DNA from: Telopea speciosissima
Taxonomy: Eukaryota > Streptophyta > Magnoliopsida > Proteales > Proteaceae
DNA: 64,000 nt
Assembly (NCBI RefSeq): GCF_018873765.1
Contig: NC_057922.1
Span: forward strand, 66,426,755-66,490,754
Direction: 5' to 3'
The translations under genes and the position numbers were made by a program. A model generated the notes under the pieces. It ran no database searches, was not told the DNA's origin, and saw only the letters and a list, made by a program, of their open reading frames with translations. Positions 1 to 46,837 of this stretch are shown here, one piece after another; position 1 is the stretch's first letter; each line of letters starts with the position of its first letter.

Positions 1-3000
1 AAGCAGGCTGTACAAAAGCTCCCTTTGTGTCTGCTATATAACGGTAGAGTTCACCATTTCTCACAGTGTTCATCTGGGAAGAGATCCATCGGAACTGACC
101 ATTCAACTTGTATGTTTCAATGAGATCATACATCTTCTTCATCTCAGATTGCTCCTCCAAGTCCTTTGATTCCTTCCTCCGGTCACCAGCCACCACAACA
201 AGGTTGACCAACTCTCTCAGCCTGGAATTCTTACCATACCACTCAACTAATCCAGTAATGTTCTTCACACGGTCCAATCTTGCCATCGAAAAAATGATTG
301 GCTTGCTGGTATCATTTAACATACCTCTGCAGACTCCCAATGAAATGACATTTAATTTTAAGAAAAGAACAGAGAAGACAAAAACAGAGCAGGCAAAATA
401 AAGCAAAACTCACATGTGTTCTGCATTCTGATCAGGGCTATAAAGAAGCTCCTCGATCTCAGGGTGGAAGGCTGTGAGTCGCTTTTCCTTCTCTGAATAG
501 GGGAAGTAGATTTTCATATCTGCTCCTGGAGAGACGATGTTAAACTTGGGGTCGAAGACATCGATACCATGGACAACTCGATAGAGTCCAGGGAGTGTAA
601 ATGCAGTGTGACTCTCATATTGTCCAACAGTGTCCTTGCTGAAACATTAAAAGCATAAGAATTATGATCTTCAAAACAGGGTACTAAATTAATCACATTA
701 AAAAGGATGATTGGAGAGAAACAGGCAATGGTACCTTCCAGCAATCTCTTGGAAAGTACTGGTGATAATAAAATCTGTATGATTCATAGCAATTAGATCA
801 GCTGTGAATTGACATGAGAAGTGATACTTGTCTTCAAACTTTTTCCAATATATATCAGAATCTGGATACTTGGTTTTTTCGAGGGCATGAGCAATGGTGC
901 ACTGCAGAACAGAAAAAAGAAAACAAGAACAGATGTCTTAGTTGCTGAAGGAGAATGCGACCAGCCATATTCCTTTAAGCAGAGAGACTCATTTAACACA
1001 TTACCTGTGTGACCCCTAACTTGTGTGCCAGCAAAGAGGCAACAAGATTTCCATCACTGTAGTTTCCAATGATCAGATCTGGCTTGCCCTGCATCTCTCC
1101 AGCTATTTCATTTGCAACATCCTAATAACAAGGCAAGTATTACATACTTTTTTTAAGCACGCCAAAGCAATCAAGGCGGGAGAGAGTATTCATAAATGCT
1201 TACAAGAGGTGAAAGATATAATTATGTCTCCATGTACCATAAAGAACAGTAGTCTGAATTACATTTTACCTCTGTGAATGTCTCCAAGTATGGCCATACT
1301 TCAAATCTGGAGATCCATTTACGAAGAATCCCTTTCTCAGTTCTGAAAGGAACTCGGAGAATGCTAGTATGCTCCGTTCCAAGAACTTTTTCAAGATGCT
1401 GATTACAAGTAGTTCCTACTGCATCGGGTAAAAGTCGAGTCACCTGAATTTGACAGCAAGACCAAAAATTAAACAGGGAAAAGAGAGAGAGAGATTAAAC
1501 AGGCATATATAAGACAGTCATGGATCTTACAATGAGAATTCGAGGGGTAACGTCAAGTCCTTGCTGCTTGATGCGTTGAAGCATCTCAGCCTCCATGGCA
1601 CGAACTTGATCCAAAATATAAACAACCTGAAAAAAGAAATCCAATATGCAGAATTAAAAACTCAAACTTGGAAGAGGTAAGGAGGTAAAACTGTTTCTTA
1701 ATGTAAACAAACATACCTGTCCCCCAGTGTCAGGATAGCCTAATACGTTGGACTGGGCAAAGTATCCATGAGGAGAAAGAATCACAACATTGAAAACCAT
1801 AGGGATTCTTCCAAGGAATGTCTCAAGAGTACATGGATCAGGTGCCTCAAGAAGGTCTAATAGTAGATGAATCATCTCTAGGACACGTTTAGCAGTATCA
1901 CCCCACCCTTTCTCCAAGCCGATCTCTTGGAACATATGATGAAACTCGGAATATGATGTGTCTGGAGGGAGAGTGGACAGGTACTCCTCTGCCTTCCTTA
2001 AAACGGATTGGAGAGAATTAAGGTTTTGTATCCTATCATTCAACATCATAGTCTGCACAAGCCCATCAAACAGTACTAATGTGAAACTCATAAAAAAAAA
2101 ACATCTTATAGATACTTCTTTTGCTTTCTTCAATTAAAGATTGCACACATTGTATGATTAATTAAATAAGAAAATTTAAACCAAAAATAGATAGTGAAGC
2201 ACTGCTAATCTGCAGTAGTACCGAGTTTACCTTTCCCTTGAAGTGATGTTCCCTGAGGAAATCAAGCAGTGGATGCATGCTATCTTTGTCATGGAACATT
2301 TTTGCAGAGAGGTGTCGATTGAGAAACTCCACACCATTCCCAATGGACTTTGAAAGAGTTGGTCTTGGAAAAGAATCAGTGAATGGTTCAAAGTCCAACT
2401 CAAGCATGAAGTTATCTTGGTCACTGCAACAGAGTAAGCAATATATTTTTAGATAAATGCAAAAATAAGTTAAGTTAGCACATCCAAAGTCCAAATTACC
2501 TTCCACCATTCACAAGTTCTTCTTTGAACTGTAAATATTCAGGCACACTCAACTCCTCTGCAACAAGCGCATTGGTATTCACACGTAAATATTCCCAAAC
2601 TCCAGGCCTTGGGCGAACAGCCAGTGCAACCCATGGAGGTAAGACTATTGCTTCCTAGATTGAAAAAGAAAATGTGATTACAGTTAAAAAGATGATTCTG
2701 TACGTCTCTATAAGGTAGATGGTGTGATCAAACTCACCTGAGTGGATCTTAAGAGATCCCCAAATGCCCCATCCGTTAGTTTTTGCTTGTCCCCTACGGA
2801 TATTGCTTCAACCTCAGCAAAGAGATGATGAGGTTGCAAAATTCCCTTCCCTTGGCTTTCCAGTCTACAAGATCAAATGACACCAGAAATAAGCCAAACC
2901 TAGGGAACGCTTGGGTTAATTTAAGCAGGAGAAAAAGATCAATCATGTTTCTCAAATTTCACTTGTTACAGATTTAAATCGAAAAAAACAAAGAAAATAT

Positions 3001-16108: not shown

Positions 16109-16229
16109 ATAGTGAATATGGTGAATGAAGGGAAGCTTGTCTGAAGATTTAATCATTGGACATCTGTCAAAGAGTCTACAAGAAGGCTAGAACAGAGGTT
16201 AAATTGGGTTGATCTTCAATGGCGTGCCC
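16109..16229 (+). pseudogene. Adenylate kinase pseudogene, exon part left of the retroelement
   Basis: After an acceptor-like CTAGCAG the translation matches plant organellar-type adenylate kinase: IVNMVNEGKLV, then EDLIIGHLSKSLQEG, then NRG and IGLIFNGVP in the order of the family segment that ends GIPRTRIQAE. Two bases are missing after GKLV (frameshift), and stop codons replace the residue after QEG and the residue after NRG. The exon is cut right after the GTGCCC codons by an LTR beginning TGATGAGCAC at 16230. The rest of this exon resumes at 23407. No earlier adenylate kinase exon was found to the left; 15150-16100 holds only a 94-codon frame of unknown nature. Confidence 0.75.
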
Positions 16230-18007
16230 TGATGAGCACATTTATGTGTGAAATCTTAGGGCATAAAGCATACATTTTACCACATTGGACAGAGTTACTC
16301 GCTGTTTTCTTGTGTTTTTTCAGGTTTTAGGTGATTTTTTGTGAAAATGGAGGAGATGATACTAAGAAAATATTTTTAAGTAGTTTAGAGGTGTTAATGG
16401 CTTGGATGCGTAGTCCATCGAGTCAGCTTCGCAACGGTTCAAACGGCAGATGATTCCAAGTTGAAACGAAGAAATTACGGCCGTTTCTGTAACGAAGCGC
16501 GAAAATGGTCTGTAGGAGTTTATTTGCAATTATTGAGAGTCGACCGGAGACAAAGTGAAGCAAAAGTTCGGATTCTAGGAGCCTTAACGTAATAACTAGA
16601 AGTTATATTTCCTGTACCCGAAAGATTCCATTTGGAGGGCTCTGGACAGTCCAACTTCAACTTGAGATATCTTGGGCTCCCGAACTCCAAATTGGACGAA
16701 ATTTGGGTTTATTTTGGGTAATTTTTCGTAAGGAACACAATGGTGAGGCCTATATAAGCATTCCATGCTCCACGTTTTCTGAATGACAGAATGGGTATTT
16801 TATTTATTCTTGAAGGAATCCTAGTCATCACCCTTACTCTCGCTCTCCTCCAACTTCTCAAGGGCACTTCTGAAATTCTACTTGGGATAGATTTATTTTG
16901 AAAGATATTCTCTCACCTATGGAAAGTTAAAAAGTCAAAGCATCTTTGATTTTATTGCTTGGAGAAAATATCTACAAAGAAAAGAAAGCACTTGTTAGAA
17001 TTGGAAATTTACTTTTCTAGAAATAGAAGTTCTATATAAATAATTTTCTCTTCTTTTTCTTTCTATTTTTTTCCTTTTTTCTTAGGATTCAAGGCATTGT
17101 AAAAGAGAATATTCTCTTTTCTTTTCTTAGAGAATATTTCTCCTACACTTCCCTCTTCTCTCCTCTTCTCTTCCCCCTATAAATACCCCATGCCCTTTGG
17201 GTTGTAAGAAGTTAGTTTTTTAGTTCAGTTTTTAGTTAGTTTCTAATTCAATTTTAATTCAGTTTTTAGTGTAATTTTTAGTTCATTCACTTAGTAAAAT
17301 TGTTTTTCTTCTTCTCCTTCTAAGTTGTGATTTTTGACTTTTCTAAGTTCTAGTTTGTTTGTTGATTTTCATTTAATGGTTATAATAGGTTTAGTTTATG
17401 TTTTAATTTCAATTTAAGTCTTCAATTGGGTTGTAATTTCTTAATTCTAGTTTAAGTTTTAAACCTTCTAGTCTAAGTTCTTAAGTTGATGACAAGACTT
17501 AAAGATTTAGAAGAGGTGGTCATAGTAAGTTTATGTAAGTATTCAAGCTTTTCAATTACATTCATGCAAGCACATCCAGGTTTTACTATCTAAACTCTCA
17601 ATCTCATTCTCCCTCTCCTCTGTCTCTTTCTATCTTCTTCTTCTTCTCCCTCTATTTCTTTTATTTTTTTTATATGATTGTGGTATGTGGATGCACTTTT
17701 ATTCCCTTATTTCTTTTTATGTGATTATGAAGTGTGGCTGCATTTTTGTTATTCCTTCCAATTTACGTTAGTTTGATAGGTTAGATGTTCATGTGTTAGG
17801 ATGCCAATTTAATCCCTTAATTTTGTTAGATGCTTATGAGTTAGGATGCATTAATTTTTATTAGTTTAATTAGTTTAATTTAACACTTTAATTTGGTTCA
17901 CTTTGCATTACTTTTAAGTTAATTAAATAGAGTGACGTATATCTCCTCGTGTTCGACCCGTAGCTACGATTGACCCGTACGCTTGCGGTAATTTTTAAAC
18001 TCAAACA
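16230..18007 (+). repeat. LTR1 (5' LTR) of the Ty3-type element
   Basis: About 1.78 kb, beginning TGATGAGCAC and ending AACTCAAACA, and near-identical throughout to 21278-23052 apart from scattered substitutions and small indels. It includes a CT-rich segment with CCCCTATAAATACC (about 17174-17187), a plausible TATA box for the element's own transcript. Confidence 0.9.
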
Positions 18008-18013
18008 AGTTTT

Positions 18014-18031
18014 TGGCGCCGTTGCCGGGGA
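18014..18031 (+). promoter_or_regulatory. Primer-binding site for tRNA-Asp
   Basis: TGGCGCCGTTGCCGGGG, 6 bp downstream of LTR1, is the exact complement of the 3' end of plant tRNA-Asp (family knowledge). This primer is typical of Athila-like Ty3 elements. A second copy with one mismatch (CGAGG for CGGGG) lies at 23059-23075 after LTR2. Confidence 0.88.
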
Positions 18032-18589
18032 GATTATTGACCACTTTATTTTTCTGATTTTTAAGTAATTTGAAGTGATTTAGTTTCGTCTCTTTTTCTT
18101 CTTGTTTTTAAAAAAAAAAAAAAAAAGTTTTTGAAAACCTCTTCTTGTTTCTCTTCTGTTTCAAATAGTGTGCACCCAATCTAAAGTCTTTCATATACCC
18201 AAACCCAGCCAATCTTGGTGCCCCTTGATTCGTTGGGTGGTTTGGATTGGCATGTGACTTATCTTTGGAGGTGACCACTCTTGATAACAGGAAAGCGACA
18301 TAGTGAGAGCGTTGGAAACATAAACGTCTAGTAGTCCTCTACCCTACATCAGAATCCATTTGGAGTTGTCCGTAGATGGCTCGTGAAGACTATGCGGGTT
18401 CCTTTGCTGTCAACCTATAGGACAATCTTACAGCTTTGGAACCATTGTTTCGATTTCTGAGGGATAGATGCACTATCTACCTTGGGCTCCCTCTTGTTTT
18501 TAGTAATTTTTTTTCTAGTCTTTTATTTTTCTTTAAACTTTTTTTTTTATGGGAGACCTCAATTTGAGATAGGTGGTTAATTTAGAATA

Positions 18590-19933
18590 ATGGAAGATAC
18601 ACTTTCATATAAGACTTTAGGGGAAAGTTGGACCTATGCTAAGGCAACCATGATTTTGGAGAAAATATTTAAACAGGTTAGAGAAACCAAAAGTAGTGAG
18701 ATAGAGAACAATTTTACACCATCCCAGTACAATTTTGCTCCCCAACCCAACTATGGGCTTTCGAAAAATTTAAATTGGTCACATCCCCAGACTATCCATG
18801 TTATGGAAGGATGCCCTAATCTTTATGGGGGTAGCAATGGTGATGAGAATGTGAGTCCTCAATTTCAATATAATTCTTTTGGCACTTACAATCACGGGTG
18901 GAGTGATCATCCCTATTTTTCGTGGGATCAATGGAATAACCAAGTTGGACCACCCAATTTCCAATATCATGATCAATTTGGTAGTCCAATGCCCAACCCT
19001 CCATTGAATCTCAATGGGCCACCTCTCCTTGAACCATACCACCAACCTCTTGAATTTCAGAACATGGGTGAGGAGGCTAGACTGAGTGAACTTGAGAGGA
19101 ACATAGCCCTTCTCACAACAAACCATAATACCATGGAGAAGCAACTCTCTCAACTGATCACCATGTTACAGGAGGAGGAAATGGGTGCATTACCTAGTCA
19201 GCCTGAACCTAGTCTATGTTACTAGATTCCTGTTCAAAATGAACCACCACATCCCCAATTTAATGATATTGAAAGTCCACCACCCCAGTTTGAGGTTAAT
19301 GAGAGTCATTCCCAACAAACTGTTTTTCATGATAACTTATTTGTTGAGATTGAGTCTCCTCAGGATATTAGTGAAGCGAGATTTGATGAGCTACCTGGGG
19401 AAGTCCAACTTTTGCTTGAACTTTCTGATTTTAGTGAGCCTAGTGTTTCTATTGATTTTGAATCAAATTTTCATGATAACATAGAAACCCAGAAAATTCG
19501 ATCTCCCCCTCTCTATTTGGAAAACTTAGATAATTGTCATTTTGAGGATTCCATTGTCTCACATGTTGATTTGTCCAAACCTCCTAGGTTTGACGATTTT
19601 ATTGACGAGGACAATGTTAGTCATAATGCCTTTCAAGCATATTTCCATGATCCTTATTTGCCAAACCAAGTTATGCAAAGAGCGGATAGTTGTATTGCTA
19701 GGATTGATTTGAGTAAACCTCCAATTTTTTATGATTATTTAGATAAAATTATTCATAATCCTTTTTATGCTTATTGTGATCCGTTTTTTGTTGGTATTTC
19801 AAAGAATAATAGGTGTTCTACATTGCAAATGAGAGAGAAGGGAAGGATTTATGGCCTGAGTTTTATTGCCTTCATTTTTTCACTGTCCCATGAGGATAGA
19901 TTTTTCTGTTGGATATTTCTCAGTTGTTCTTAA
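18590..19933 (+). pseudogene. Gag-like frame of the LTR element, 447 codons with one amber stop
   Basis: A single reading frame runs from ATG 18590 to 19933, broken only by TAG at 19223-19225. The first part is rich in N, Q, P, W and Y. Near codons 163-200 a segment reads LSELERNIALL, then MEKQLSQLITML, then GALPSQPEP. This matches the coiled C-terminal tail of Athila-type gag, which precedes a PSxT-type linker. Downstream of the stop the frame is acidic and holds two copies of a DLSKPP module 138 bases apart (19565 and 19703). No zinc knuckle, protease or reverse transcriptase follows. Function unknown; it could be decayed gag or a protein specific to this derivative. Confidence 0.65.
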
Positions 19934-21277
19934 CTTTCGTATTATTTCTCGTTTTACTAAAATTCATGGTCAAGTGTTTTCTGGTTCTGAAGCTATTTCT
20001 CCATTTACTGGCCATGGATTGAGATTTCTATTGCTACTCCTAGCACTTTTTGTAGAGCTCATGACTCTTCATGATCCTCTTTGTTGATTATATCTGGTAA
20101 ACCCCTTCATCTCCTCCTTTGTCCTTATTTTTTTTCTTTTATGCATGCATTGAGGACACTACATGAATTAAGTGTGGGGGGGATGTTGGACTTAATTGGT
20201 GAATTTTGATTGTGACAATAGTTTGGTTTTGTGCATATGTCTCTTTGATTGCAAAACGAGAGAGAGAGGGAATTAGGTGTCCTAACATGCAAAATAATAA
20301 AAAATCCATTTTCAAGGACGGTAGTTGATTTGTATCCGGTGATGGGAATTGAGTTTGAAAATATGAACGTTATTTCATTTGATGGCTAGATTCCTTTATG
20401 TGTTTTACGGACCCTTTGATCTTTTGGCTAGTAGTTGAGACCAAGTTGTTTGTGGCAAGGCAAGGCATGAAAGTGGAAGTAAATGAAAAAAAAAGAAAAA
20501 AGAAAAAAAGAACAAGAAAAAAAAAAGAAACAGAAAAGAAAGTGGAATTCCTTGGGACTAGACAGAGCATTGTGTCTCATGAAGCAGGGTGACTTGATCG
20601 AAAATCCTTGGAAGGAAACTCAAAAAACTCTTGCATCAATGTCTCAAAGTCTCTATGGATATATGCAAAAAAGCAAAGCTACCAAGTATTTGAGTGTTTG
20701 GTGTATCCTCCACCATGTCATTCAGAGAACAATAGTGGAGTAGAAATAGAGTTTGTGGTTGAGAAAAAAAAAAAAACTTTTGCCTTAATGCCTGAAAAAA
20801 AAAAAAAAAAAGTATGATCAACAATACTCAATGCCTAAGTCTTTGGTTCCATCGATGCTATGAGGGGGTTTACTTGAAAGTGAGTAATGTTCAGAAAATA
20901 TGAGGAGATCCCTTGAACTTGTTGCATGCTTGTTACTTGAATTGATGTGGGGTGATAAAATTCAAGTGTGGGGGAACCTTTGGCTCTTTAATCTTTAGTT
21001 GAGTATTTCTTTGAGATTGTGTGCCCTATCTTACTTATGCCATGAGAAAAATTTACATCATTCTTTTTTATTTATTGAATTTTGGGTGTATATTCACTGC
21101 AAACACCCACAAGACACAACTCGTCCACTAGGGGTAACCTAGGGGTTGAAAGGCTTGTTGCACATGCTAAGTGCAACCGTGATTCCTACGAAAGTGAGTT
21201 AGGATTTTTTTTGTATTTTAGGTTAGTTTATCTTTTGCTTTACTTGAGGACAAATAACGTTCAAGTGTGGGGGAATC
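19934..21277 (+). other. 3' internal region of the LTR element with three polypurine-tract-like motifs
   Basis: Non-coding apart from low-complexity lysine/glutamate frames over purine runs (20480-20560, 20764-20812). AAGTGTGGGGG-type motifs occur at 20170-20182, 20964-20976 and 21263-21275. Only the last abuts LTR2 (AATC then TGATGAGC at 21278) and is the likely working polypurine tract. The first and last are each preceded by a TTGAGGACA motif. Confidence 0.7.
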
Positions 21278-23052
21278 TGATGAGCACATTTATGTGTGAA
21301 ATTTTAGGGCATAAAACATACATTTTACCACATTGGATAGAGTTACTCGCTGCTTTCTTGTGCTTTTCAGGTTTTAGGTGATTTCTTATGAAAATGGAGG
21401 AGATGATGTAAGAAAATATTTTAAAGCAATTTAGAGGTGTTAATGGCTTGGATGCGTAGCCCATCGAGTCAGCTTCGCAACGGTTCAAACGGTATATGAT
21501 TCCGAGTTGAAACAAAGAAATTACGGCCGTTTCCGTAATGAAGCGCGAAAATGGTCTGTAGGGGTTTATTTGCAATTATTGACAGTCGATCGGAGACAAA
21601 GTGAAGCGAAAGTTCGGATTCTATGAGCCTTAACGTAATAACCAGAAGTTATATTTCCTGTACCCGAAAGATTCCATTTGGAGGGCTCTGGACAATCCAA
21701 CTTCAACTTGAGATATCTTGGGCTCCCGAACTCCAAATTGGACGAAATTTGGGTCTATTTTGGGTGATTTTTCGCAAGGAACACAACGGTGATGCCTATA
21801 TAAGCATCCCATACTCCACGTTTTCTGAATGACAGAATGGATATTTTATTTATTCTTGAAGGAATCCTAGTCATCACCCTTACTCTCGCTCTCCTCCAAC
21901 TTCTCAAGGGCATTTCTGAAATTCTACTTGGGATAGATTTATTTTGAAAGATATTCTCTCACCTATGGAAAGTTGAAAAGTCAAAGCATCTTTGATTTTA
22001 TTGCTTGGAGAAGATATCTACAAAGAAAAGAAATCACTTGTTAGAATTGAAAGTTTACTTTTCTGTAGAAATAGAGTTACATGTAAACAATTTTCTCTTC
22101 TTCTTTTTCTATTTTTTCCTTTTTTCTTAGGATTCAAGGCATTGTAATAGAGGAAGGAGAAGAGAATATTCTCTTTTCTTAGGGAATATTTCTCCTACAC
22201 TTCCCTCTTCTCTTTTCTCTTCTCTTCCCCCTATAAATACCTCTTGCCCTTTGGGTTGTAAGAAGTTAGTTTTTTAGTTCAGTTTTTAGTTAGTTTTTAG
22301 TTCAATTTTAATTCAGTTTTTAGTGTAATTTTTAGTTCATTCACTTAGTAAAATTTCTTTTCTTCTTCTCCTTCTAAGTTGTGATTTTTGGCTTTTCTAA
22401 GTTCTAGTTTGCTTTTTTATTTTCATTTAATGGTTGTAATAGGTTTAGTTTATGCTTTAATTTCAATTTAAGTCTTCAATTGGGTTGTAATTTCTTAATT
22501 CTAGTTTGGGTTTTAAGCCTTCTAGTCTAAGTTCTTAAGTTGATGACAAGACTTGAAGATTTAGAAGAGGAGGCCATGGTAAGTTTATGCAAGTATTCAA
22601 GCTTTTCAATTATATTCATGCAAGCACATCCAGGTTTTACTATCTAAACTCTCAATCTCATTCTCCCCCTCCTCTGTCTCTCTCTATCTTCTTCTTCTTC
22701 TCCCTCTATTTCTTTTATTTTTTTTATATGGTTGTGATATGTGGATGCACTTTTATTTCCTTATTTCTTTTTATGTGATTATGAAGTGTGACTGCGTTTT
22801 TGTTATTCCTTCCAATTTACGTTAGTTTGATAGGTTAGATGTTCATGTGTTAGGATGCCAATTTAATCCCTTAATTTTGTTAGATGTTTATGAGTTCGGA
22901 TGCATTAATTTTCATTAGTTTAATTTAACACTTTAATTTTGTTCACTTTGCATTACTTTTAAGTTAGTTAAATAGAGTGACGTATATCTCCTCGTGTTCG
23001 ACCCGTAGCTACGATTGACCCGTACGCTTGCGGTAATTTTTAAACTCAAACA
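21278..23052 (+). repeat. LTR2 of the Ty3-type element
   Basis: Starts TGATGAGCAC right after a polypurine tract and ends AACTCAAACA. Unlike a normal 3' LTR it is followed by AGTTTTTGGCGCC, that is, by another primer-binding site and leader, rather than by host sequence. Confidence 0.9.
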
Positions 23053-23401
23053 AGTTTTTGGCGCCGTTGCCGAGGAAATTATTGACCACTTTATTTTTCT
23101 GATTTTTAAGTAATTTGAAGTGCTTTAATTTCTTCTCTTTCTCTTCTTCTTTTAAAAAAAAAAAAAAAAAAGTTTTGAAAACCTCTTCTTGTTTCTCTTC
23201 TGTTTCAAATAGTGTGCGCTCAATCTAAAGTCTTTCATATGCCCAAACCCAGCCAATCTTGGTGCCTCTTGATTCGTTGGGTGGTTTGAATTGGCATGTG
23301 ACTTATCTTTGGAGGTGACCACTCTTGATAATAGGAAAGCGACATAGTGAGAGCGTTGGAAACATAAACGTATAGTAGTCCTCCACCCCCAAACTCAAAC
23401 A
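23053..23401 (+). repeat. Second leader fragment plus 11-bp LTR stub
   Basis: 23053-23388 repeats 18008-18344 (primer-binding site, poly(A) run, GTGACCACTCTTGATAA and TAGTGAGAGCGTTGGAAAC). Identity stops at ACCC, and after two more C bases the sequence jumps to AAACTCAAACA, the extreme LTR end. Host DNA follows, beginning with the TGCCC target copy. This is the deletion junction of the collapsed tandem. Confidence 0.85.
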
Positions 23402-23605
23402 TGCCCCAAACTCGCATCCAAGCTGACAGACTGTTCATTGATGAATGATTTTAACAAACTGTACCTGATGGGTTGTGTTTGTTTTCCATAAAGCAAGATT
23501 GGAGGAATGTTCAGTCAGTAACTCATGATCCTTTTTTTTTGTTTAATTTAAATTGCAATAGATCCTGGACCAAGTTGCTGATATCGATCTAGTCGTGAAT
23601 TTCAG
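23402..23605 (+). pseudogene. Adenylate kinase pseudogene, part right of the retroelement
   Basis: From 23402 TGCCC CAAACTCGCATCCAAGC reads VPQTRIQA, the direct continuation of the exon cut at 16229. After a ~140-bp intron-like stretch and a TTGCAATAG acceptor, 23562-23605 reads ILDQVADIDLVVNF, a highly conserved adenylate kinase segment, then runs into TGA without a donor. The kinase would interconvert ATP+AMP and 2 ADP, but this copy is dead. 23610-24380 holds no further recognised exon, only purine-rich and AT-rich DNA. Confidence 0.75.
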
Positions 23606-24385
23606 ATGATCCGTGAAAAAACAGTCCTAGAAGTAGGATTTGTTCACAATGTCATGAAAGCACAGTGTTGCACCGCTGCCTCTGTTGCAGAGTTCGACAA
23701 ATCCGACCTTCGCATGGTGCGGAGTGAACGAAGAAATGAGGGATGAGGGAATGAGAGAATGGGAGGAGAGAGAAGGGGAGGGAGTCGAGGTACCGAGGGA
23801 GAAGAAACTTTAGCTTCGCCGGAAATAAGAGGGAGGGAAAGAGGGACTATATAGATGATTTTGGGGAAGATGGGTTGTGGTCAATTACATTTTAACCCTT
23901 TTTAAAAAAAGTTAGTTAAAGTATTAAGATTTCTTTGATTTTTTAGTAGTGAATGCGATTTCACTCAATTACCCTCATAAATGTATTTTCAATTGTATCC
24001 CTAACTGTAGTTTAAGAGGGTAGTTATAGCCTTGTTATGTTTGGATAAATAACAGACCCTTATTACACTAATAATTCCCCAAAAATTTAAGCTTTGAAAA
24101 TTTCAAGGCTACTAGGTTGGTGCATAGTATGAGGAGATGTATGATTTTGAATTTAATCATATAATTTCCTCAAAATCCTATAATTAATATTACACCATCC
24201 TTCCATGTGATATAACTAGGTGTAGACAAATTAATGGAGTCGATCACGTGGTGCATGGACCATCGATAACGAGAGGATTCCATGCACAATTTTAGGTATT
24301 GATATTCGATGATCGATACGAATACCTAATTGATACAGATCGGTTGATACAATACGGACATTGATCGAAAAAATGATGTTTTAGC

Positions 24386-24630
24386 TAGGAGTGTAAATGA
24401 ATAGCCGAAATTTGTTTCCGTATCTGTATAGCACTATCCGAATCCGTTAGCAAGATAAATGGATGCGGATGCGGATAGGCTATAGCTATTCGAAAAGCCG
24501 AAAAGCTATATTTACATGTAAACAGATAAAATATCCGATCCGTATCCATGTCTATATCCGTTTAGTACTATTCGAATCCGTCCGAAAGCTAATCAGATGC
24601 GGATACGGATCCGATCCATTTACATCCCTA
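24386..24630. mobile_element. Small hAT-type MITE, copy 1 (245 bp)
   Basis: Ends TAGGAGTGTAAATG and CATTTACATCCCTA are inverted repeats. The flanking 8-mers GTTTTAGC (24378-24385) and GTTTTGGC (24631-24638) differ at one base, fitting an aged 8-bp hAT target duplication. The interior alternates GGATGCGGAT and ATCCGAATCCG motifs and is closely related to 46838-47107. It lies ~335 bp upstream of the eIF3k start codon. Confidence 0.85.
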
Positions 24631-24965: not shown

Positions 24966-27900
24966 ATGGGAAGAGAGCGAGAGGTTCCAAAACAGCCGGT
25001 CTCGTACACGGTTGAGCAGCTTATCGCTGTGAACCCATACAATCCTGACATTCTACCTGATCTCGAAAGCTACGAGAACGAGCAGGTGAGAGATCCAGGC
25101 CTCTCTCTTTCTCTCCTCGTATATCGTAATTCTTTTCACTTATGTTTTCTGTTTCCTGTTTCTCTTGATTCTTTTACTTTACTAATTTAAAGTATAATTA
25201 GTTATGGTGAAAGGTGAGGAATTTTACCGAGAGTCCGGGACAGGAGACTTTTTATGTATTTTTTTTAGTCTGCTTGATGATATTGTTGGGTTTTGAGGAT
25301 GTGTATCAGTTCAACATTGCTTTGAGTATTGGTGTAGGATGTTAAGCTTCTTACTGAAAGCCACTTTAAAAAACCCCAATACGCCAGAAATTGAAAATAA
25401 AAATAAGAAAAGAGCCATGGTGGAGTAGAATGTGGCATTTTTTGGACCTAAATGTTAGTAAACATCACGATTGAAATTGATTTTAGGTTAATAAGAATTT
25501 TGGCCTGTAACTTATTTGAACAGAGGAAGAAGGAAAGGGTAGGATTCTTGATTAATTCTTTATCATTATTCTTCTAAAAGTTATATTGGGTATCTTGCCA
25601 GTGTATAAGAGAGTTTTGGTAGTCTCCATGACGTCAGGTACAATAATAACAACTCATCCTTATCCCAACTAAATGGGGTTCACCACATGGATCCTTGCCC
25701 TCCAATCAGCTTTATTGGAGGTCATACTTAGCTATGCATGTCTTTCCTCACCAGTTCTCCTAGGATCATTTTAGGTCTGCCTCTGGGTCTTTTAGTTCCT
25801 TCAATCTAAATCAAATCACTCCTCCGTACTAGAGCATCCAAATGCCTTTGTTGAACATAGCCTTGCCACCTCAAACAACTTTCTTATAGCTTATCATTTA
25901 TCAGAGCTGCTCCCAAATCAGTCTCCATGCCATCATATACTCCTTTTTATTTCCTGGAACATATTTAGGGTCATATATGTGGAGATAGAGAAGGGGAAAA
26001 AAAAACACATTCTATTGCAAACTTAGAACTATGATTGCATGTACACTGGGAACAAGGTTCAAAGTTTCGGTTTCGAGCCAAGTGAGTTTTTCTTGTAGGT
26101 TTCGATCCTTAGTTTCAAGGACCACATGGCCAAATTGGTTGCTATAATCGATGACCACGGTCAGTGTTGATCTTTAATTCTCCCCTCAATATCGACTCTT
26201 CTTAATTCAATCTTGTTTGTCATGCCTAGTTCATCTTTGTATTTGTCAAGCTTGGTAAAGCACAGTTCTTTGGTGAACACGTCAACAACTTTTCCTTGCA
26301 AGACTTTTTCTCGAATGAAGTGATGGTTTACTTCCATATGTTTGGTCCTTGCATGAAAAACAGGCATTTTTGCCAATCGTATGAGAGAAAAGTTATCACA
26401 GTATAGGGATATTGAATAATTCACTGGCTGATGTAGATCATTCATTAATTGCATCAACCATGGGCTTTCTTGTATTGCCATTGTTGATTTATATTTTGCC
26501 TTTGTGATTGACATAGATACTTTTGATTGTTGTTACACCAAGAGACTGCTACAAATTCAAAACTGAATGTATATCCAATCATTGATTTTCTCTTGCTTGT
26601 GTGACCTGAATAATCAGTATCACAATGGCCAAATAGCTTGCAAGCTTCTCCTTTTCCATATAGAAGACCAAAATCCACAATTCCCTTCACATACTACAAA
26701 TTCCAACAAGTTGCTTCCAGATGAAGCTTCTTTGGCTTCTACATGAAATGACTCACTAGGTCACCTGCATAAGTGATGTCAGGTCGAGTCATTGTCAAGA
26801 AAATAAACTACCTATGAGTTGCCCATACATGGTCGAGCCTTCCAAATCATTTCCATCATCAATACTTAGTTTAGTGTTGACCCCTACTTGCGTATAGATA
26901 GACTTGGAATCTTTTCAAGTTGTATTTTAGTAAGAGATTTCTTATGTGAATTTTGCTGACAAAGGAACAACCCTTCTTTGACTCGATCAATCTCAAGCCT
27001 AAAAAATGCTTGAGGTCTTTTATATGAAATCGTACAGATAAATATTCCCTGATTTGACAATTCATCTTCATTATCTCCTGTGATGATTAGGTCATCTATG
27101 TTGACGAGTATGGTTGATATCTTACCATTTTGAACTTTAACGAACAAGCTCAAATATGGAGGTGTAACTGAGTATCCACTTTGAACTAAGCTATTTTTTT
27201 GTACCATGCACTAGTGCTTGCTTCAATCCATACAAAACTTTTCGTATTTTTCATACTTATTTTTGTCGGTCTTGACACATGAATCTTTTTGTTTACTCCA
27301 TGTAGATGTCATGGTCAAGCTCTCTGTGAAGAAAGACATTCTTTACGTCCATCTACTATAATGTCCATGCCTTTCTTGTTGCAAGTGCTATCAAAACCCG
27401 TGCAGTTGGGATTTTGGCAACCTGATTGAATGTGTCGTCATAATCTAGCTCATATTGTTGCAAGAAACCTCAAGCAACCAATCGAGCTTTTGATGGCGGC
27501 CAATCTAAAAGCCCGAGCTTCGGGGCAGAGAGGCACTTCCAAGGCCATATGCCAAACTGTTGAACACTACCTGATCAATATGGGACTAAACTCTCCTCCC
27601 ATTCCTGGCAAGGAGCGTACTCATTGCATCAACTCTCCCCAGCTTTGGGCCATGGGCCCCCACATGGCCAATGCACGGACAACCCGCTCTGATCCCCTCT
27701 CGGAATCCTCCCTCTCTCCTAACCGGCCCTCCACCAGTTCAGGTTCTAGTTATTTTCTGCAATTCATCTTCTAGTACTTGCTGTTCTAGTTCTGAAATTA
27801 AATTCTGTTCTAACTAGAATTCATATGCAAGGCTTTTTTTTTTGCATGAATTCTGACGAGGGAAATCCAACCATTAGATCATCTTCAAATTTTGATCAGT

Positions 27901-35998: not shown

Positions 35999-38900
35999 TG
36001 TTAAACTAATCTCAACAAACTCTATCTCTCCAGCTCAACCTCATGCGTCTAGCACTCCCGCTCAAAAGTTGGTAGCACAACCATAGTTGGGATATCTTGT
36101 AACAATGTAACAGTCCTTACAGTTCTATCTTATCTACACCTCTTGTAAACAGTTCTAGTCGATCCACAACTCTTGTACATTGTAACTACATTGGAGATAT
36201 AAATACACATAATCCCAATCCTAAGACTTGAAGGACTATGGGGATGTAGAGATGGTGTAAATAGGTGGACCTTTCCATTCGTGCAAATGAGGTGCTATGT
36301 AGAGATGGGTTGTGGAATATGGGGATCATGAACATGATCGACTCAGATATGGTGCGCTAGAGCGTATTGAATGGTAAATTCATTCTTTCTAATAAAGAGG
36401 ATTACCTGGTGTGGACCACTTCGAGGGATGGCAACATTTCAACTAAATCCATTTGGAATGAAGTAAGACAAGGCTCTAGTGTCAAGCCATTTGCAAAATG
36501 GTTTTGGAACCGGACACTCCCATCCAAGGTGGGTTTTTTTTCATGGCAGATAATGTGTGGGGGGGGTTCCTACTGACGATGCAGTCATGAGGATGGGGGT
36601 GCTGCTGGCATCGAAGTGCCTGTGTTGTGGTCAGCCAAGATGTGAAACGGCTTCTCATGTGCTGGTGACAAGTGGAACGGCTAGTAAGGTATGGGAATTT
36701 TTTTCACTTTTATGTGACGTGGAATTGATTCAATTGCAGGATGTTCGAAGTTGTATACTACACTGGCATAATCATGCGAAGGATTATAATTTACTTGGCA
36801 CAATTATAGGCCTACTGCCCTCTCTCATTGTATGGGAATTATGGAAAGAGCACAACAACCGAAGACATGGGGAAAATGGGAGACCTACGAGCAGCATTGT
36901 GAAGGTTATAAGAAGATGGATTGCTGAAATGCCCTTCAATTTATCCTTGGGTAAGACCCCTTCCTTTAAGGAAGAAATTACATTACAGTTCTTTGGCTTA
37001 AAGCACTGCCCCAAAGCGATGAAAATGCCAATTTCGGTTTCATGGTACCCTCCCACCTCGGATATCAAACTTAATGTGGACGGGGCCTGTAAAGGCAATC
37101 CCGGTCTAGGAGGGGGTGGGGGGGGTAATTTGAAACAGGGAAGGGCGTGTGATTGCTGCCTTTGCCACGTGCTATGGAGTGTGCACGAACACGATTGCAG
37201 AACTAAGAGCCTTAAGATATGGCTTAAAGCTCTGTGAAAGCCTGGGACTTAAGGACTTTCAAGTCAATTCAGATTCAATGACTACTGTGTCGAGCATAGC
37301 AAAGAAAACACATGGTAGCTGGGAATGTTGGTACTGGTTTCAAGGGGTTTTGGAGTTGGTGGATTGTCTGGGTTCAACGATTACCTTTACCTTTCGTGAG
37401 GGAAACAGAGCTGCGGATTGCTTGGCGAATTTAGCCTGCAACATGGAGAGGAGTTTAGTGTTTGAAGGGGAGGATAACATGCCTCTTGAGCTGCGACAGA
37501 TTATCTAAGAAGATGCTATGGGATTACTGATCATTAGGCATTAGCCTAGGGTGTCTACGGGGGTCGGGGAATGCTCTTTGGAGCTGCAGTATGTGATGTG
37601 TCAGTTGAGTTGGGCCAGGGGTAAGGCGGGTATGTCCCCCCCTCTTGTATTGCTTCATTCTATTCAATTTTAATAAAATCCTAGGGGCCAGCCCGGGTCC
37701 CAGAGAATATTTGGGCTAAAAAAAAAAACCAAGACTTGAGGGAATTCAAACCATATCTCAACTCCTTATATGGTATCAAAGCACAACAAGAATGCCCCTA
37801 TCGATCATGGCCTCTTCTGACTTCTCAACAACAACAACAAGCTTCACCGCCACCTCTTCTCCTACCCTCATCTCTCCAACCAATATCGTTTCACTTCTGC
37901 CAGTGAAACTTGACCGGTTGAACTACCTATTGTGGAAGTCCCAGTTCATATCACTTCTCGGTGCACACGATCTGTATGGATACATTGACGTTCCCTACCT
38001 TATCCACCCAAAATCTCCTAGCCTGCTCACCTTCTTCTTCTCTTCTCTCTAACAATCCCGCCCACACACAATGGCGTCGCCAAGATCAATTGATCCTTAG
38101 TTGGATAATCTCCTCTCTCACCAATCATGCTCTTGCCCATATCATCGGTGTTACCACCTCTCATGTGGTATGGACAAGCTTGGAACAAATCTACGCCTCC
38201 CATTTGTAGGCACACATCAGCAGCTCAAATACCAGCTATTCTAGATCAAGAAAGGCACTTTTTTCATGTCCGATTACATTTGACGAGTCAAGGACCTACT
38301 CAACCACCTAGTTGACGCAACTCATCCAATCTCCGAGGCTGATGTCATTCTAAGCATCTTGCATGGACTTGGCTCAGATTATGAGTCATTTGATACTTCT
38401 CTTACCATGCGGCTGGATCCACTTTCTTTAGATGATTTCTTGGGATTGCTACTCAGCCAAGAGATCCTCAAAGAACAACACTGTCCCCATCTTGATCTTC
38501 CCACGATTGAGGGCAGTAGTGTTGCTACTACCCATCAATCGATCTCTCCTCCTACTCACACCAATCGGGACTCCATCTCAACTTCATCCCCTGGCCGGCG
38601 TTACCCCAACCGTTGTGGTTGTTGGCCCTCTCACTAGCAGGGTTTTCATAAAAAATAAAAATAAAAAATGGGACGTCCTCCCTTTGTTAGATCTGTTAGT
38701 CTGGCAATCACTCTGCTCTCTCCTACCACAACAGGTTCAACCCAAGCTTCCAAGCTCCTACTGCTCAAACTCAAGTTGAACCTCCACATGCTCTACTTGG
38801 GGCTCGTACTACTCCATATGATTCTACTTGGTACAAGGATTCAGGAGCCACCTACCACCACATTGCTAATCTAGGGAATCTGAATCTCAATACTCCCTAC

Positions 38901-39395
38901 ATAAGTTCTTATCAAGTTCGAGTTAGTAATGGGGCAGGTTTGCATATAAAACATATTAGCACCTCTAATCTCCCTTCTTCTAATCGTTCTTTTCACCTTC
39001 ATGATGTTTTGCATGTCCCTAATGTAACCAAAAATCTCCTTTTTGTTCGTCTCTTTACAGCTAACAATGGTGTTATTTTAGAGTTTCACCTGACTTGTTG
39101 CTATGTGAAGGATCCTCATACGGGGATAGTCCTACTCCATGGAACGACTAAGGATGGACTTTTCCGCTTTCCAAGCCCGCCATCCCAATCGCCTCTTCTC
39201 TATCTTGGTGAGTGTGTATCTACATCTATCCAGCATTACTGCCTCGGCTGCCCCTCCTCCAAATGCTTGGATTCTCTGTAGTCTCAACTACCTATTCGTG
39301 ATTTCACACCACCCTCCATTTGTACCTCTTGCCAAATGGGCAAGTCACACAAGCTTCCATTCTATCTGAACCGCACCCAAGCAAACCCAACAAAT
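35999..39395 (+). mobile_element. Ty1/Copia element relic, 5' part, containing a nested LINE
   Basis: A TGGTATCAAAGC primer-binding site (37771-37782, initiator tRNA-Met type) is preceded by a putative ~280-bp LTR (about 35999-36234 plus 37731-37768). That LTR includes ATATAAATAC at about 36198 and is split by an L1 insertion. After the site come gag (37807 onward, SLLPVKLDRLNYLLWKSQF), a second gag stretch near 38359, the protease-like DSGATYH (near 38840), the pre-integrase segment LHDVLHVPNVTKNLL (near 39000) and the zinc motif remnant CTSCQMGKSHKLPF (near 39320-39360). The element stops near 39395 without reverse transcriptase or a 3' LTR. Several frameshifts. LTR borders are inferred. 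Confidence 0.7.
36235..37730 (+). mobile_element. 5'-truncated L1 LINE nested in the Copia LTR
   Basis: Encodes the end of ORF2: a zinc-finger reverse-transcriptase-associated domain (SIWNEVR..FAKWFWNRTLPSKVGFF, then CLCCG..ETASHVL, 36367-36700) and an RNase H domain (KLNVDGACKGNPG near 37070, IAELRALRYGL near 37195, FREGNRAADCLANLA near 37395). Frame shifts occur near 36555 and 37110-37150. The 3' end is AATAAAATCC..GGGCT(A)11 near 37728. Flanks AAGACTTGAAGG (36223-36234) and AAGACTTGAGGG (37731-37742) form a 12-bp target duplication with one mismatch. Confidence 0.88.
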
Positions 39396-40599: not shown

Positions 40600-43500
40600 G
40601 TTATATCCAAAAAAGAAAGTAGAAGTGGTAAAGTGTTCCTAGGAAGTGGGGAGAGAGATTGGAAGGTTAGTGCATTAAAAAGTCAAGGGTTGTGAACCCA
40701 AATATCTGTAACTGATATATTGTTTTGCTATAACTTCCCCCATCCTGTCCATAGACCAAAAACCTCCGCTTCAGTATCCTCCTGCATAGCCAACCAACCT
40801 GCATCTGTTAGGACACTCTCACCATCTATCAATACATAATAAGTCCATCTTGCTAATTTAAGATCTGGTTCATAAATTCTTGCGACCACCAAACCAGACA
40901 TATTCAAATTAAACTGAATACCAAAGAGTGGTTGTACAATTAATGGGGGGGGGTTGGGAGTCATTTAAAGACCCAATGGGGGGGGGGAAACATTCATATC
41001 CGCTAACCAGCGAGAAACATTCTTCAGAACCACAAGAGGGTCTGCAGGGGCATTACACATAATCACTTTGTTTCTTACAGACCAGATGAAATAAAAAGTA
41101 AGAATAAAAACAAAGAAGAACCAACTTAAAGAAGCCTTATCCAAGAGAAGTGTTCCAGGTAAAGAGGTAACAAGATCAATGAGAGATGGAGCAGCTAGAT
41201 GCTCAGTTCTCAATCCAAGGGGACCCGAAGCCCACACATGCTTAATCCAATCACAAGACAAAAAGAGATGCCAGATGGACTCAACACTAGAGCCACAGAG
41301 AGCACATTGTGGCTCGATAGCCATCCATTTCGAAAGAGTGCCTCGTGTAGGAATCCTTGCATTTAAAACACGTCAAAAGAAGATTTTAAACCGTGGATGA
41401 ATTCAGAATTTCCAAAAAAATTTCGACCATCTGGAGTAAGCACAATTTGTTGAAATTGATGTAGTCAGGAAATAGGTAGCTCTCTTGGTAGAGAAGCTCC
41501 CATTTCTAGAGAGTGTGCACCACCAGGAGTCTTCGGCCTCAGTGATGTTAACTCTAAGAATTGTATTCACAAAGGAAGATTGAAAACAAACATATAATTT
41601 TGAGGTGTCCCAGGCATTATTGGAGATAAAATCACTTACCTTGCCAAAGTTTGGTGAAGGTAGAATTGCCTGAGGTATAGAATTACCTGTTCTCATGGGA
41701 ACCCAAGGGTCATGCCAACAGGAGGTATTACATCCATTTCCAATTCTGCGAAGAGAGATTTTTTTCAAGTCTGGCAATAATTTAGCTATGCTATTCCAGG
41801 TCCAAGACCCCCTTTTTAGCCCAACTTTAGGGTCAAAAATAGAGGTTTAGGGAAGTACCTGGCCTTCAGGATTCTAGGCCAGACCGAGGATGGTTCAGAG
41901 AGAAGTCTCCATCTAAGCTTAAGTATTAAGGCCTTATTATGGATTTTGGATTTACGAAGGCCTAAACCACCAATAGACGTGGGCTTACAAATAGAATCCC
42001 ACCCAATTAAGTGACTGCGGGTTTTGTCCCCATGGTCATTGTTCCAAAATCTAAGGTATATTGTGTCCAACCCCTGACACGTTTTCTGTGGTAGAAGGAA
42101 ACGGGACATGTGATAGGCAGGGGTGGAGGACAAAACAGATTGAATCATCATCCGTCTCCCCGCATAAGAGAGAAGGTTCGCCTTCCAGGTGGAAAGCTTA
42201 GAGCGGACTCTATCTACCAGGGTAGTGAGGTCCTTACACTTAGATCTGGAGTGGCACAGTCTAGTTCCTAAATAGACAGACTTAGTTGTCATTTCCTTCA
42301 TCTGAAGGAGGCCACAAAGGGTTTTCTTTTTTTCCAACCCAACTCTTTTACTAAAAAGATCTCACTTTTACCAAAATTAATTTCCTGTCTTGTAATATCA
42401 GAGAAAAGATCAAGGACCAACTTAATAGTTGAGAAATCATCATCAGTTGCCCGACAGAAAATAAAGGTGTCATCAGCGAACAGCAAATGAGAAATTTCAG
42501 GTGCAGTGTGTGCAACCTTAATACCTCTAAAAAGTCCAATGTCCCTATAAGCACCCAGAAGTCTTAACAGAACCTCCATAGTTAATAGGAAAAGGTAAGG
42601 ACTTAGAGGGCATCCCTATCGTAGCCCCCTCTGAGGGATCAGATAATCAAAGGAACTCCCCTGCAGTTTGATGGAAAAAGAAATAGTAGTTACCAGGGTC
42701 ATGACCAGGGAGATCTAATGATTGTCAAAACCCAAAAATTTTAGGAGATTGGGTAGGAGTTGCCATTCAACCCTATCATAAGCTTTAGACATGTCAATTT
42801 TAATCGTGGCAAAGCCTCCTTTACCATTATGCCATTTTAGGAATTGAAAAATTTCCTGGGCGATGGCAATGTTATCCCCAATTTGTCGACCAGCCACAAA
42901 AGCAGCTTGGAAAGGGAAGACAAAAGATGGAAGAATGGGCTTAAGCCTGTTAGCCATAACCTTGGCAATGATCTTATAGCTGACATTACGTAGACTAATG
43001 GGTCTGAAGTCCACCACTGATGTGGCATTGTCAGTTTTGGGCACCATACAAAAAGGTGTGTGGTTACAACCGGGGGTAAGGGTTGCACTATGAAAGAAAT
43101 TTTGGACAAAACAAACCACATCTTCTCAAATAAGCTCCTAGCAATGCTGAAAGAAACACGCCTGGAATCCATCCGGCCCTGGGGCTTTAAAGGCCCCAAT
43201 TGAAAACACTGCCCTCTTAATTTCACTCACATCAGGGGGAAGGGATAAGTGGTTCATAGATTGGGAGGGGAAGAGAGGGGGGAATAGACATTCCACAAAA
43301 GAGGTGTCTAGGGGGTTGGAAGTTTTGAAAATAGATCCCAGATGCACTGAGAACAGATGGGCCATAAGTCTAGGGTCTTCAACTTTGTTACCCAAATCAT
43401 CCACTAGAAAGGAGATGCTACGTTTCCTTAAGTTGGCCTTAGAAACAACATGATAGAACTTAGTATTCCTATCCCCGTCTTTAATGAAAGCTTGCCTAGA

Positions 43501-44518
43501 TTTCTGAAACCAAAACAGTTCCTCAGCCTTTGAAAACCATAAAAGTTTGGAATGGAGCCCATGTAGAGTTTGAAAGTTTTTCGGGGTGGGGGAAGCATCT
43601 TCTATTAGGAGGAACTTCTCCAAATAAAGCCTTTGTAGGGAGGAAATATGTCCAAAAATAGATTTGTTCCAAGAAGAAAGGAGTCTTGCTAGAGCAGGGA
43701 GTTTAAGGTGGAGAGAATCAGGGGACAACAAACCTCACTTTTGGGCACAGAATGAGAAAAAGTCTGGGTGATAGAGCGAAGCAGCTTGGAAGTGGAATAA
43801 TTTTTTAAAAGTTCTTGTAGAAGGGGTGGTCTGAAGGTAGATGGGATTATGGTCAGAACCTACAGATGATAGCTTAGAGAGGTTGGAGAGGGGAAATTCA
43901 GCAACCCATCCAGGAGAGGCTAAGGCCCTGTCAAGGCACTCCTTAATTAGCCTAGGGGGTTTCTGTTAGTTGGACCAGGTAAAGCTTGATCCAGGGGGTG
44001 TCAGGATTTCAAGACTATAATCTGAAATAAGGTTTAGTAATGCTTGTGTGGAGGGGTGTATGGTGAAAGGGGACCCCCGAGTTTGTCAGCATGAGACAGG
44101 ACCTCATTGAAGTCCCCAATTATAGCATAAGGAGAAGGGATAGTGGTCAAAAAATTGGACAGACTGGTCCACACTCCCCCCCTCTTAGAGGCATGAGGTG
44201 GGGCATATAGAAACACAATCCACACAGGGGTTCTAAGGGGTTGGTCAACAGAAACAACCACAAAATTGGTGTGGGTGGATTGGACAGAAACAGAGAGATT
44301 CGGTTTCGCTAGGATCCATAACCCTCCCTGCTTACCCCGAGAACCAGTGCTTTCAATAGTAGAGACAATTTTAAAGTGAGATTGGAGGAAGTTAAATTTT
44401 AACTGGTCTCACACAGGAAGACCAGGTCAGGGAGAATCTTCTGTATGTGTTGTACAAGATAGTGTTTAGTAAATGCATTATTTAACCCCCTAACATTCCA
44501 AGAAAGGATAATTATCAT
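40600..44518 (-). pseudogene. LINE ORF2 (endonuclease, reverse transcriptase, RNase H), frameshifted
   Basis: From ATG 44518: MIIILSWNVRGLNNAFTKH opens an apurinic-type endonuclease; YAIIGDFNEVL (near 44120) is its conserved core. Reverse transcriptase blocks follow: DGDRNTKFYH (near 43470), FKAPGPDGFQ (near 43165), DFRPISL (near 43005), KIDMSKAYDRVEW (near 42780) and LLFADDTFIFCRA (near 42480) with the catalytic Asp pair. Then comes SYAGRRMMIQSVLSSTPAYH (near 42150), a zinc-finger segment CALCG..SIWHLFLSC (near 41290) and a decayed RNase H to about 40600. At least five frame changes and several stops. Confidence 0.85.
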
Positions 44519-44752
44519 GCACAGACAGCTAAAAAATAAAATAACCACTAAGAAAACACAGCACAGAAGCAGGCCGGGAAACAACAGGAAATTCGATATC
44601 CAGAGGAATAAACAAACAAATAAACAAAACCAAAAAAAGAAATAATGATGTAAGGAAAAAAACAACGCTTACTAGCTTTGTTAGCCAGGAAAAATTGACA
44701 CCAGAATAGAGAGAGAAATACAACAAAATAGCAGCACCAGAATTGCTGAAAA

Positions 44753-46318
44753 TCAAAAAGGGGGGGTTGAATCACTTACCTGGACCGACGAGGGAGTGAC
44801 CGGATCAGTAACAGTGTAGGCAGAGCTCAGTGGGTCAGAACAACCAACAAAAACAGAAAAACCAGCAGGAGGGGGTGCAACTTCAGAGAGCCAATCTTTA
44901 ACAAGAGAGAGTAGCATACAAGGTTCCGAAGAGGATAACAGATCAGACGTAAGCATATCCTTAAGTGCCGAGAATTTAGAGAGAGTGGCACTACTTAACT
45001 CAGCCAGAGAAATCTTTCTTTTCTTGGATGGAGGGGAGAATTGAGTAGAGCCAATATACATGTTGGAGCTGAAAGTACTAGCAGTAAACAGAGAAGCTGA
45101 AGAGGGAGGACCAGCAGGCCGTGAACTAGAGCCAGTACCCCAACCAGAGACAATCGATGGAGGGGGTATCCCAGGGTCCGATCAAGTAGGTTGATTCATA
45201 GGCGCCTGGGGCTGCGCAACAGTCTCTGGAAAGGCCTAATTGAGATCCTTTGCCATGGAGAACAGGGAAGGCATGGGTGTGGTGAATGAGCCCCTGAGTG
45301 CAGATAGGACAGTAGAATCAAAAGTTAGAGGGCTGCTCGTCTCACCCACTGGAACAATGGAAGTTGCGCAGCTAGAGAAAGGATTCTGCAGAGGTGTGGA
45401 AGACGTAGCCGGAGGTGCCATCGTAGAGCCAGAAACAGAGTTCGAAATGTCCATATTTGATGAAGAAAGAGACCCTGATTTCGAAGGGTCGGACAGACCA
45501 GATAAGCCAGAAACTATGTTGATCAGCAATGGCTTAGTAAGCACGTTGTTGTAGAAACCCAGAGGAGGCAAGCTAGGGTCCGAGTGGCCCCTGGTATACG
45601 GGCAATGTGAAATATCATGGTAGATACGACCACAACACGAACAGAGTAGCCGAAGCTCATACTTGATAGGAACAGAAAGCAGAGTACCTTGACCATTAAG
45701 GAACTAAGCCGTGATAACCAGAGACTTGCGTTTATCAATAAGGACCTTAACTCGAGCCGTGAACGGAGGTAGACCCAGAGTACCAGTCTGAAGCATAATC
45801 TCACGGGTTTCCCCAACATCAGAAAGTGCTTGGCGTATATGCACATTGTCAAAACTTGCAGGCCGAATATCGAAGACATGAATCCACACCTGGATGAGAT
45901 CCCTTTCAAATACATAATACGGATCGTCCACAGAGTGATCAACTAGATGTAGGAGACATTTTTCAAACCACCAAGGTGCAGAAGCCATAATAGCAGCCTT
46001 ATGAGAGGGAAGGCGACATTCCACAGAGGAGCTTCCTTTATCAAAACACTTAACTAGCAGGGCACCACAGGGTTCCCACAAATTCCCCAGAAACGAACAG
46101 AATTCCACCTTAGAAGGTTTAGGAAACCCAACCACATACCCATGAAAAGAGCGAGCGCTAACAGCATCACGCGACTGAGTGAGTGAGAGACCTCTACGAG
46201 TTTTGGACTCCCAAATAGAGAAGTGTGGCGAACGATCATCCACAAAGCGAAAGTTTGGCCTAGACTGCCTGTTGCGGTGCTGAGAATAGACCCTGGGCCC
46301 AGAAGCTCTAGTCAACAA
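44753..46318 (-). pseudogene. LINE ORF1 (gag-like nucleic-acid-binding protein), three in-frame stops
   Basis: One reading frame covers 46318 to 44753, interrupted only by TAG near 45703, TAG near 45235 and TGA about 15 codons later. It carries a DUF4283-like segment (VGFPKPSKVEFCSFL through VWIHVFDIRP) followed by a C-x2-C-x4-H-x4-C zinc knuckle (CSCCGRIYHDISHC, near 45640) and a Ser/Pro-rich tail. ORF1 would bind the LINE RNA. No clear ATG at the start; the upstream stretch may contain it. Confidence 0.7.
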
Positions 46319-46837
46319 AATGGACAGCGGCCTGAGAAGAACAGAAAATCAAAAATCAGAGAGGTGACATAGGGGAGACACAGAAAAGGACGCTCAAAAC
46401 GCTGAGAAGGAGCTGCAAGAGTCCAGGAAACCAGTCGTCACCCAAATTGGGACGGCTCACCACAGAAAAGGCGCAGGGAGGATGTACGAAGCCACTAGCA
46501 AGACGTCACAGGTCGTGACGGGAAGCAACCACCCAGACCAAGCAGCAAGGGAAAGAAACGTAGAACCGCAGAGGGCGACAAAGGAAGGGAAGCCAAAAAG
46601 GGAAAGAGAGGTACCGAAGAGGAAAGGAACATAAGAGGATGGAAAGGAATCGCTTAAAAAGGGGAAGAAACCCACTGAGCCCTACCACAAACGCTGTAAC
46701 AGACCGTACTCCCCCGTTGTTCTAGGTAAGTAGAGAGAAGAGAGAAAGGGAGGGTGCGAAGGTCGAGAAAGAGCGGTCCAGTAAAAAGCCTAGAAAAGGA
46801 ATAGTAATGAAGAAAACGAAGAGATACGGCCTGTTAG

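Follow-up and report, generated by a model that had tools for sequence, protein, structure and literature searches.

The window analysed here, a 64-kb stretch of the Telopea speciosissima genome (C7:66426755-66490754 of an 823-Mb assembly in 1287 contigs; positions given without a chromosome are counted within the window), holds a long terminal repeat (LTR) retrotransposon lying in the remains of an adenylate-kinase-like exon. All of its parts are on the forward strand and follow one another in the order LTR1, internal region, LTR2, a second primer-binding site (PBS) with 336 bp of leader, the two bases CC and an 11-bp LTR terminus, with TGCCC on both sides of the whole. A sequence-only reading of this DNA had described LTR2 as followed by a second PBS and leader, then a jump at ACCC/CC to an LTR terminus and TGCCC, and each of these was found at the coordinates it gave.

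The left 5-bp target-site duplication, TGCCC, occupies 16225-16229 and is followed by LTR1 (16230-18007), which starts with TGATGAGC, ends with CTCAAACA and has a TATA-like TATAAATA at 17178. The duplicated part of the leader of the first unit (18008-18344) includes the PBS TGGCGCCGTTGCCGGGGA at 18014-18031, which we take to be complementary to plant tRNA-Asp. The remainder of the internal region (18345-21277) contains open stretches of 214 and 235 amino acids, in the same frame with a stop between them, and has the purine tract AAGTGTGGGGGAATC at its 3' end. LTR2 (21278-23052, 1775 bp) again starts with TGATGAGC and ends with CTCAAACA, and after both LTRs comes AGTTTT and then the PBS, the second of these (23059-23076) with one change. 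The second leader (23053-23388) aligns with the first over 336 sites with 17 substitutions and one gap, and breaks off after CCTCCACCC; then follow the CC (23389-23390), the last 11 bp of a third LTR, AAACTCAAACA (23391-23401), and the right target-site duplication (23402-23406), identical to the 5 bp to the left of LTR1. The 11-mer AAACTCAAACA occurs three times in the window, at the ends of the two LTRs and in the stub. The units are thus of one family and joined via a common LTR, though the second retains only its 336 bp, and a single target-site duplication encloses the whole array; the right end has 11 bp of LTR rather than an LTR, and we therefore class the element as a trimmed derivative of a tandem.

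With LTRs of 1.78 kb and an internal region of 3.27 kb, the window copy resembles four other single copies of its family, three on C5 and one on C6, whose LTRs measure 1.77-1.80 kb and whose internal regions measure 3.19-3.26 kb, and which have no adjoining family sequence; one of the three C5 copies is flanked by a perfect 5-bp duplication, GTGGA, and the other two match at four of the five bases. The family is high-copy, with 2578 genome candidates at first look, the best 40 of which were scored. A domain scan of four open stretches of the window copy, one of them on the minus strand, recognised no pol domain and gave two unrelated matches below cut-off only; none of 35 candidate proteins was a homologue of the Gag-like piece at 18581-19225 at E 0.001, and the LTR-end/PBS pattern had no exact match in viral contigs. 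Because LTRs, PBS and purine tract are intact, the window copy shows no pol domain in the stretches scanned and there are many copies of similar length, the family is a non-autonomous plant LTR retrotransposon of the large retrotransposon derivative class. We presume that PBS and purine tract hint at an Athila/Tat-type gypsy lineage, there being no pol domain by which to place it. The last 17 bases of TGGCGCCGTTGCCGGGGA are also present in a peanut retrotransposon probe sequence (PMC5904367).

Over 1765 sites the two LTRs show 96 differences (Kimura two-parameter distance, K2P, 0.0569), and the two leaders show 17 over 336 sites (K2P 0.0528), a leader/LTR distance ratio of 0.94 (95% interval 0.55-1.50), or 1.14 (0.67-1.85) without the low-complexity stretch 17015-17165. 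A scan for a breakpoint in rate along the 2.1 kb was not significant (permutation p 0.13, and 0.44 without that stretch). Where the leaders differ, leader 1 departs from the majority of 28 other copies at eight sites and leader 2 at nine, two of the latter at the edge of an A-run, and 12 of the 17 differences are present in none of the 28 copies compared. Substitutions common to both window leaders against the majority number three, and are seen in 2, 1 and 7 of the 28 others. In the LTRs 42 changes are private to LTR1, 37 to LTR2 and 24 shared, by reference to six LTRs of three C5 elements. Since LTR and leader divergence are equal and the changes symmetric, the second unit appears to have begun diverging at insertion or soon after. 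At the rice rate of 1.3e-8 per site and year, which we assume here and which carries a large uncertainty for this plant, the insertion would be about 2.2 million years old.

This timing fits tandem integration, which has been proposed for other complexes (PMC1950507; PMC11899658), at least as well as it fits unequal LTR recombination, the probable origin put forward in the sequence-only reading; the latter is still a possible source of the array, as an early crossover also fits, but the equal divergence does not single it out. The best of the alternatives combines a single insertion, a tandem made later by unequal LTR recombination on sister or homologous chromatids, and a plain end-joining deletion that spared 11 bp by chance. 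Such recombination has been proposed in plants and other eukaryotes (PMC11899658), the sparing of the 11 bp would require just one random end point, and the 5' part of the LTR does differ more than the rest (6.6% vs. 4.1%, split at 16579), which is the direction predicted, though not significantly so (p 0.44). A late crossover, however, predicts a younger age for both the leaders and the 3' LTR portion than for the 5' portion, whereas the leader/LTR ratio is close to one, and it predicts that leader 2 should have the early changes of leader 1, whereas the shared changes are few beside those that differ. A late crossover misfits the timing unless it was located near the first bases of the LTR, and we regard this explanation as unlikely, though less so if the crossover came early or lay close to where the LTR begins.

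The junction at which the second leader ends carries the other part of the argument. Among 28 other loci, read at the break point with a simple pattern that is readable on the plus strand only and left one plus-strand locus (L007) unmatched, nine copies have TACATC or TATATC next, the preceding bases being CCTCCACCC in eight and CCTCCAACC in the ninth; the leaders of the C6 and C10 tandems described below also continue past this point like other copies. Because these nine copies lack the CC and continue in this way, the CC counts as filler, and the break is a genuine departure from the family sequence. Spanning the junction is the 10-mer CCCCAAACTC (23387-23396), made up of CC from the leader, the filler CC and AAACTC from the stub, within the full leader-CC-stub pattern CCTCCACCCCCAAACTCAAACA. 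The same CCCCAAACTC recurs 17 bp downstream, at 23404-23413, running from the target duplication into host DNA, where it is the proposed template; the sequence-only reading had missed this repeat. At least 10 bases matched in 8 of 20,000 random host windows of 25 nt searched on one strand and, when both strands were searched in 50-nt windows, in 56 of 20,000, and an equally long match occurred in 2 of 1537 host windows that already had CCC. A junction-spanning direct repeat within about 30 bp, as looked for in synthesis-dependent microhomology-mediated end joining (SD-MMEJ, of the polymerase-theta type), is therefore present, and it was probably templated end joining, after integration, that closed the deletion. 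A join during reverse transcription is disfavoured because the host flank adjoined the element only after integration. Derivation of the whole stub from the host flank, with no third LTR, was tried and rejected, as the AAACA abutting the target duplication would stay unexplained.

The history we propose begins with a non-autonomous LTR retrotransposon that would have inserted once into the adenylate-kinase-like relic, giving the 5-bp TGCCC duplication, an LTR-internal-LTR-internal-LTR tandem being in existence at insertion or soon after. A later double-strand break would have removed about 4.7 kb, which, for a unit of full length, comes to 2933 bp of internal region plus 1764 bp of LTR3. The left end (...CCTCCACCC) may then have paired with the host flank through its last two Cs, copied CCAAACTC from the flank and released, and the copied end re-annealed, its AAACTC pairing at the AAACTC close to the LTR3 terminus, by synthesis-dependent microhomology-mediated, polymerase-theta-like, end joining. 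Priming, copying and re-annealing in this way reproduce the observed letters of the junction exactly, and the templated join would set the stub at 11 bp and spare the target duplication; the survival of 11 bp would be explained because flank and junction have CCCCAAACTC in common. The anatomy, the equal divergence, the filler and the local repeat are directly observed; we infer the order of events, the repair pathway and the full length of the lost unit, and consider the whole, insertion, early tandem and later templated-repair deletion, to be likely. It agrees with the sequence-only reading in having one insertion, a second unit and a deletion that left the last 11 bp of a third LTR inside an intact target duplication, all of which the analysis supports.

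Several points weigh on the other side. Of the lost 4.7 kb only 11 bp are left. The repeat test was made post hoc and is based on a single 10-mer with a C run, and one junction is insufficient to establish a repair pathway. The window leaders are 5.1% apart, yet each has its nearest other copy at 3.9%, and leader 2 might in principle derive from another parent, as the units on C6 seem to; the same leader distances are also predicted by a star-like history. In favour of an inserted or early tandem, the intact three-LTR array on C8, flanked by CTTCT, shows that such arrays exist in the same family.

A product made in one step before integration would account for the terminal 11 bp, the target duplication and the equal ages without any deletion: the tRNA-primed minus strand, having copied 11 nt of U5, would jump to the leader of a genomic RNA and recopy leader, PBS and LTR, and integrase would use the 11-bp end. 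Template switching between packaged RNAs has been suggested as a source of complex insertions (PMC1950507). The would-be acceptor sequence beyond the break, TACATC in leader 1, nevertheless mismatches the stub AAACTC from its first base, a 2-nt filler is present, and the match of the junction to host DNA would be left to chance; by our reasoning, second-strand transfer should also have made the left LTR longer, barring use of the internal PBS. We think this origin quite improbable. If true, reverse transcription would have LTR-internal-LTR-leader insertions among its products, so far unrecognised, and these would indicate how short a U5 terminus suffices for a plant integrase. Least probable is an assembly artefact, with the second leader created by the collapse or misjoining of repeats: the family is high-copy, but a collapse joins at homology, of which leader and LTR end have none in common, and the leaders differ at 17 of 336 sites with the target duplication intact.

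Among the 40 best PBS matches, 36 lie behind a first LTR and four behind an internal one, namely that in the window and those at C8:60817780, C6:54457317 (minus) and C10:10889006 (minus). Tandems thus make up 4 of the 38 insertions behind these 40 matches, one being an intact three-LTR array and three incomplete; the figure is a lower bound, as 29 loci were read only about 800 bases upstream (28 without and one with internal sequence before the LTR). The intact tandem, at C8:60811237-60822801 (L031/L032), has three LTRs that are 0.4-1.1% apart and units that are 0-0.4% apart, the LTR differences being private to single LTRs, and as a young array is suited to studying tandem formation. A chimera signal in its middle LTR, considered as a sign of unequal crossover, was dropped, since the sites are private to single LTRs and several lie in low-complexity runs. 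The tandem at C6:54454841-54464256 (minus; L034/L076) has kept its left LTR, but its right end is missing and other sequence takes over there; the units are 4.0-8.3% apart vs. 2.7% for the LTRs, and it looks like two different parents in one insertion. By eye, the sequence neighbouring its right end resembles another retroelement. The tandem at C10:10884353-10893468 (minus; L074/L075) is without a left LTR, and has units 2.8-2.9% and LTRs 3.8% apart. Because three of the four tandems among the 38 sampled insertions are incomplete, incomplete tandems are not rare in this family, and the rarity that had been claimed for the window locus is not supported.

The host DNA into which the element is inserted had been described as an adenylate kinase exon that reads through once the element is ignored. 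This is so locally: with the element removed the exon is continuous across the empty site (GLIFNGVPQTRIQAD), whose expected sequence is GGCGTGCCCCAAACTCGC, and the joined flanks give ...GLIFNGVPQTRIQADRL..., which presumably derives from an adenylate kinase. The exon as a whole is not intact. Its left part (16110-16224) has a frameshift before SEDLIIG and two in-frame stops, in EG*NRG*IG; the right part lies at 23407-23427, and a further piece of the relic, ILDQVADIDLVVNFR, at 23562-23606, all on the plus strand. The host fragment had no match in Pfam; in searches of PDB sequences the shorter host piece gave nothing at E 1 and the longer one a single weak match to adenylate kinase, at E 1.5. 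A scan for a few adenylate kinase motifs found, nearby and besides the exon itself, only ILDQVADIDLVVNFR at 23562. Given the frameshift and stops, the lack of a Pfam match and the one weak PDB match, the fragment is a broken adenylate-kinase-like relic.

Elsewhere in the window, 1654-2133 (-) is a sucrose synthase exon (Pfam SUS_EPBD and GT-B_Sucrose_synth), and 24966-25085 (+), 40 amino acids without a Pfam match, resembles what we take to be the first exon of eIF3 subunit K. A decayed LINE-type element at 40965-46348 (-) has RVT_1 (42715-43125) and zf-RVT (40965-41372) above cut-off and DUF4283 (45704-46348, -) below it; a further zf-RVT match at 36554-37237 (+) is slightly below cut-off. 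Part of a retroelement polyprotein, with Pol beta-barrel (Pol_BBD), lies at 38700-39281 (+), and a BED zinc finger, which may come from a hAT-type transposon or a host derivative, at 61573-62040 (+). Two short tandem duplications in direct orientation, of about 105 bp (52638-52850) and about 102 bp (58085-58285), are also present, and dispersed repeats pair 24381-24610 with 46834-47066 and 25671-25927 with 48964-49228.

Tandem LTR retrotransposons with target duplications are already published, and each step at this locus is of a known kind. Devos et al. (2002) reportedly described the truncation of LTR retrotransposons through illegitimate recombination; like such truncations the window deletion lies inside a retrotransposon and did not use LTR homology, and unlike them it runs from within a second unit to a point 11 bp short of the element's end. 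Morales-Diaz et al. (2025, PMC11899658) report tandem LTR elements from rice, Arabidopsis, almond and cotton. Target duplications of 5 bp flank both loci that they present closely, and perfect ones flank 10 of 28 clear rice cases; gypsy elements are over-represented in rice and Arabidopsis, and Athila in Arabidopsis, almond and cotton. The window units are like those tandems in sharing an internal LTR and having a 5-bp target duplication, and unlike their clear class, with an LTR at both ends, in ending in leader plus 11 bp; they are nearer the "potentially degenerated tandems" that were left unanalysed there. As in the template-switching complexes of Sabot and Schulman (2007, PMC1950507), more than two LTRs are represented inside one target duplication, but with a third LTR of 11 bp the similarity test that they applied to outer LTRs is precluded. 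SD-MMEJ with templated insertions has been described in inherited Cas9 mutations of Arabidopsis (PMC6071589); like that plant SD-MMEJ or filler DNA, the window locus has a deletion, a short insertion and a junction-spanning repeat within 30 bp, and unlike those junctions it is a natural, old and single event. Among the papers listed in a literature search, judged by titles and the starts of abstracts, none dealt with trimmed tandems that have templated junctions, which is not proof of absence.

The locus itself alters no principle. Its scar can be read base by base, and links the loss of a unit to what was probably templated end joining on the host flank. It also places the second unit close in time to the insertion, which is relevant to the origin of plant tandems, called open in PMC11899658. 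The high-copy family to which it belongs, with tandems at 4 of 38 sampled insertions, would be a good one in which to count how many tandems were inserted as such, how many were made later and how many have been trimmed.

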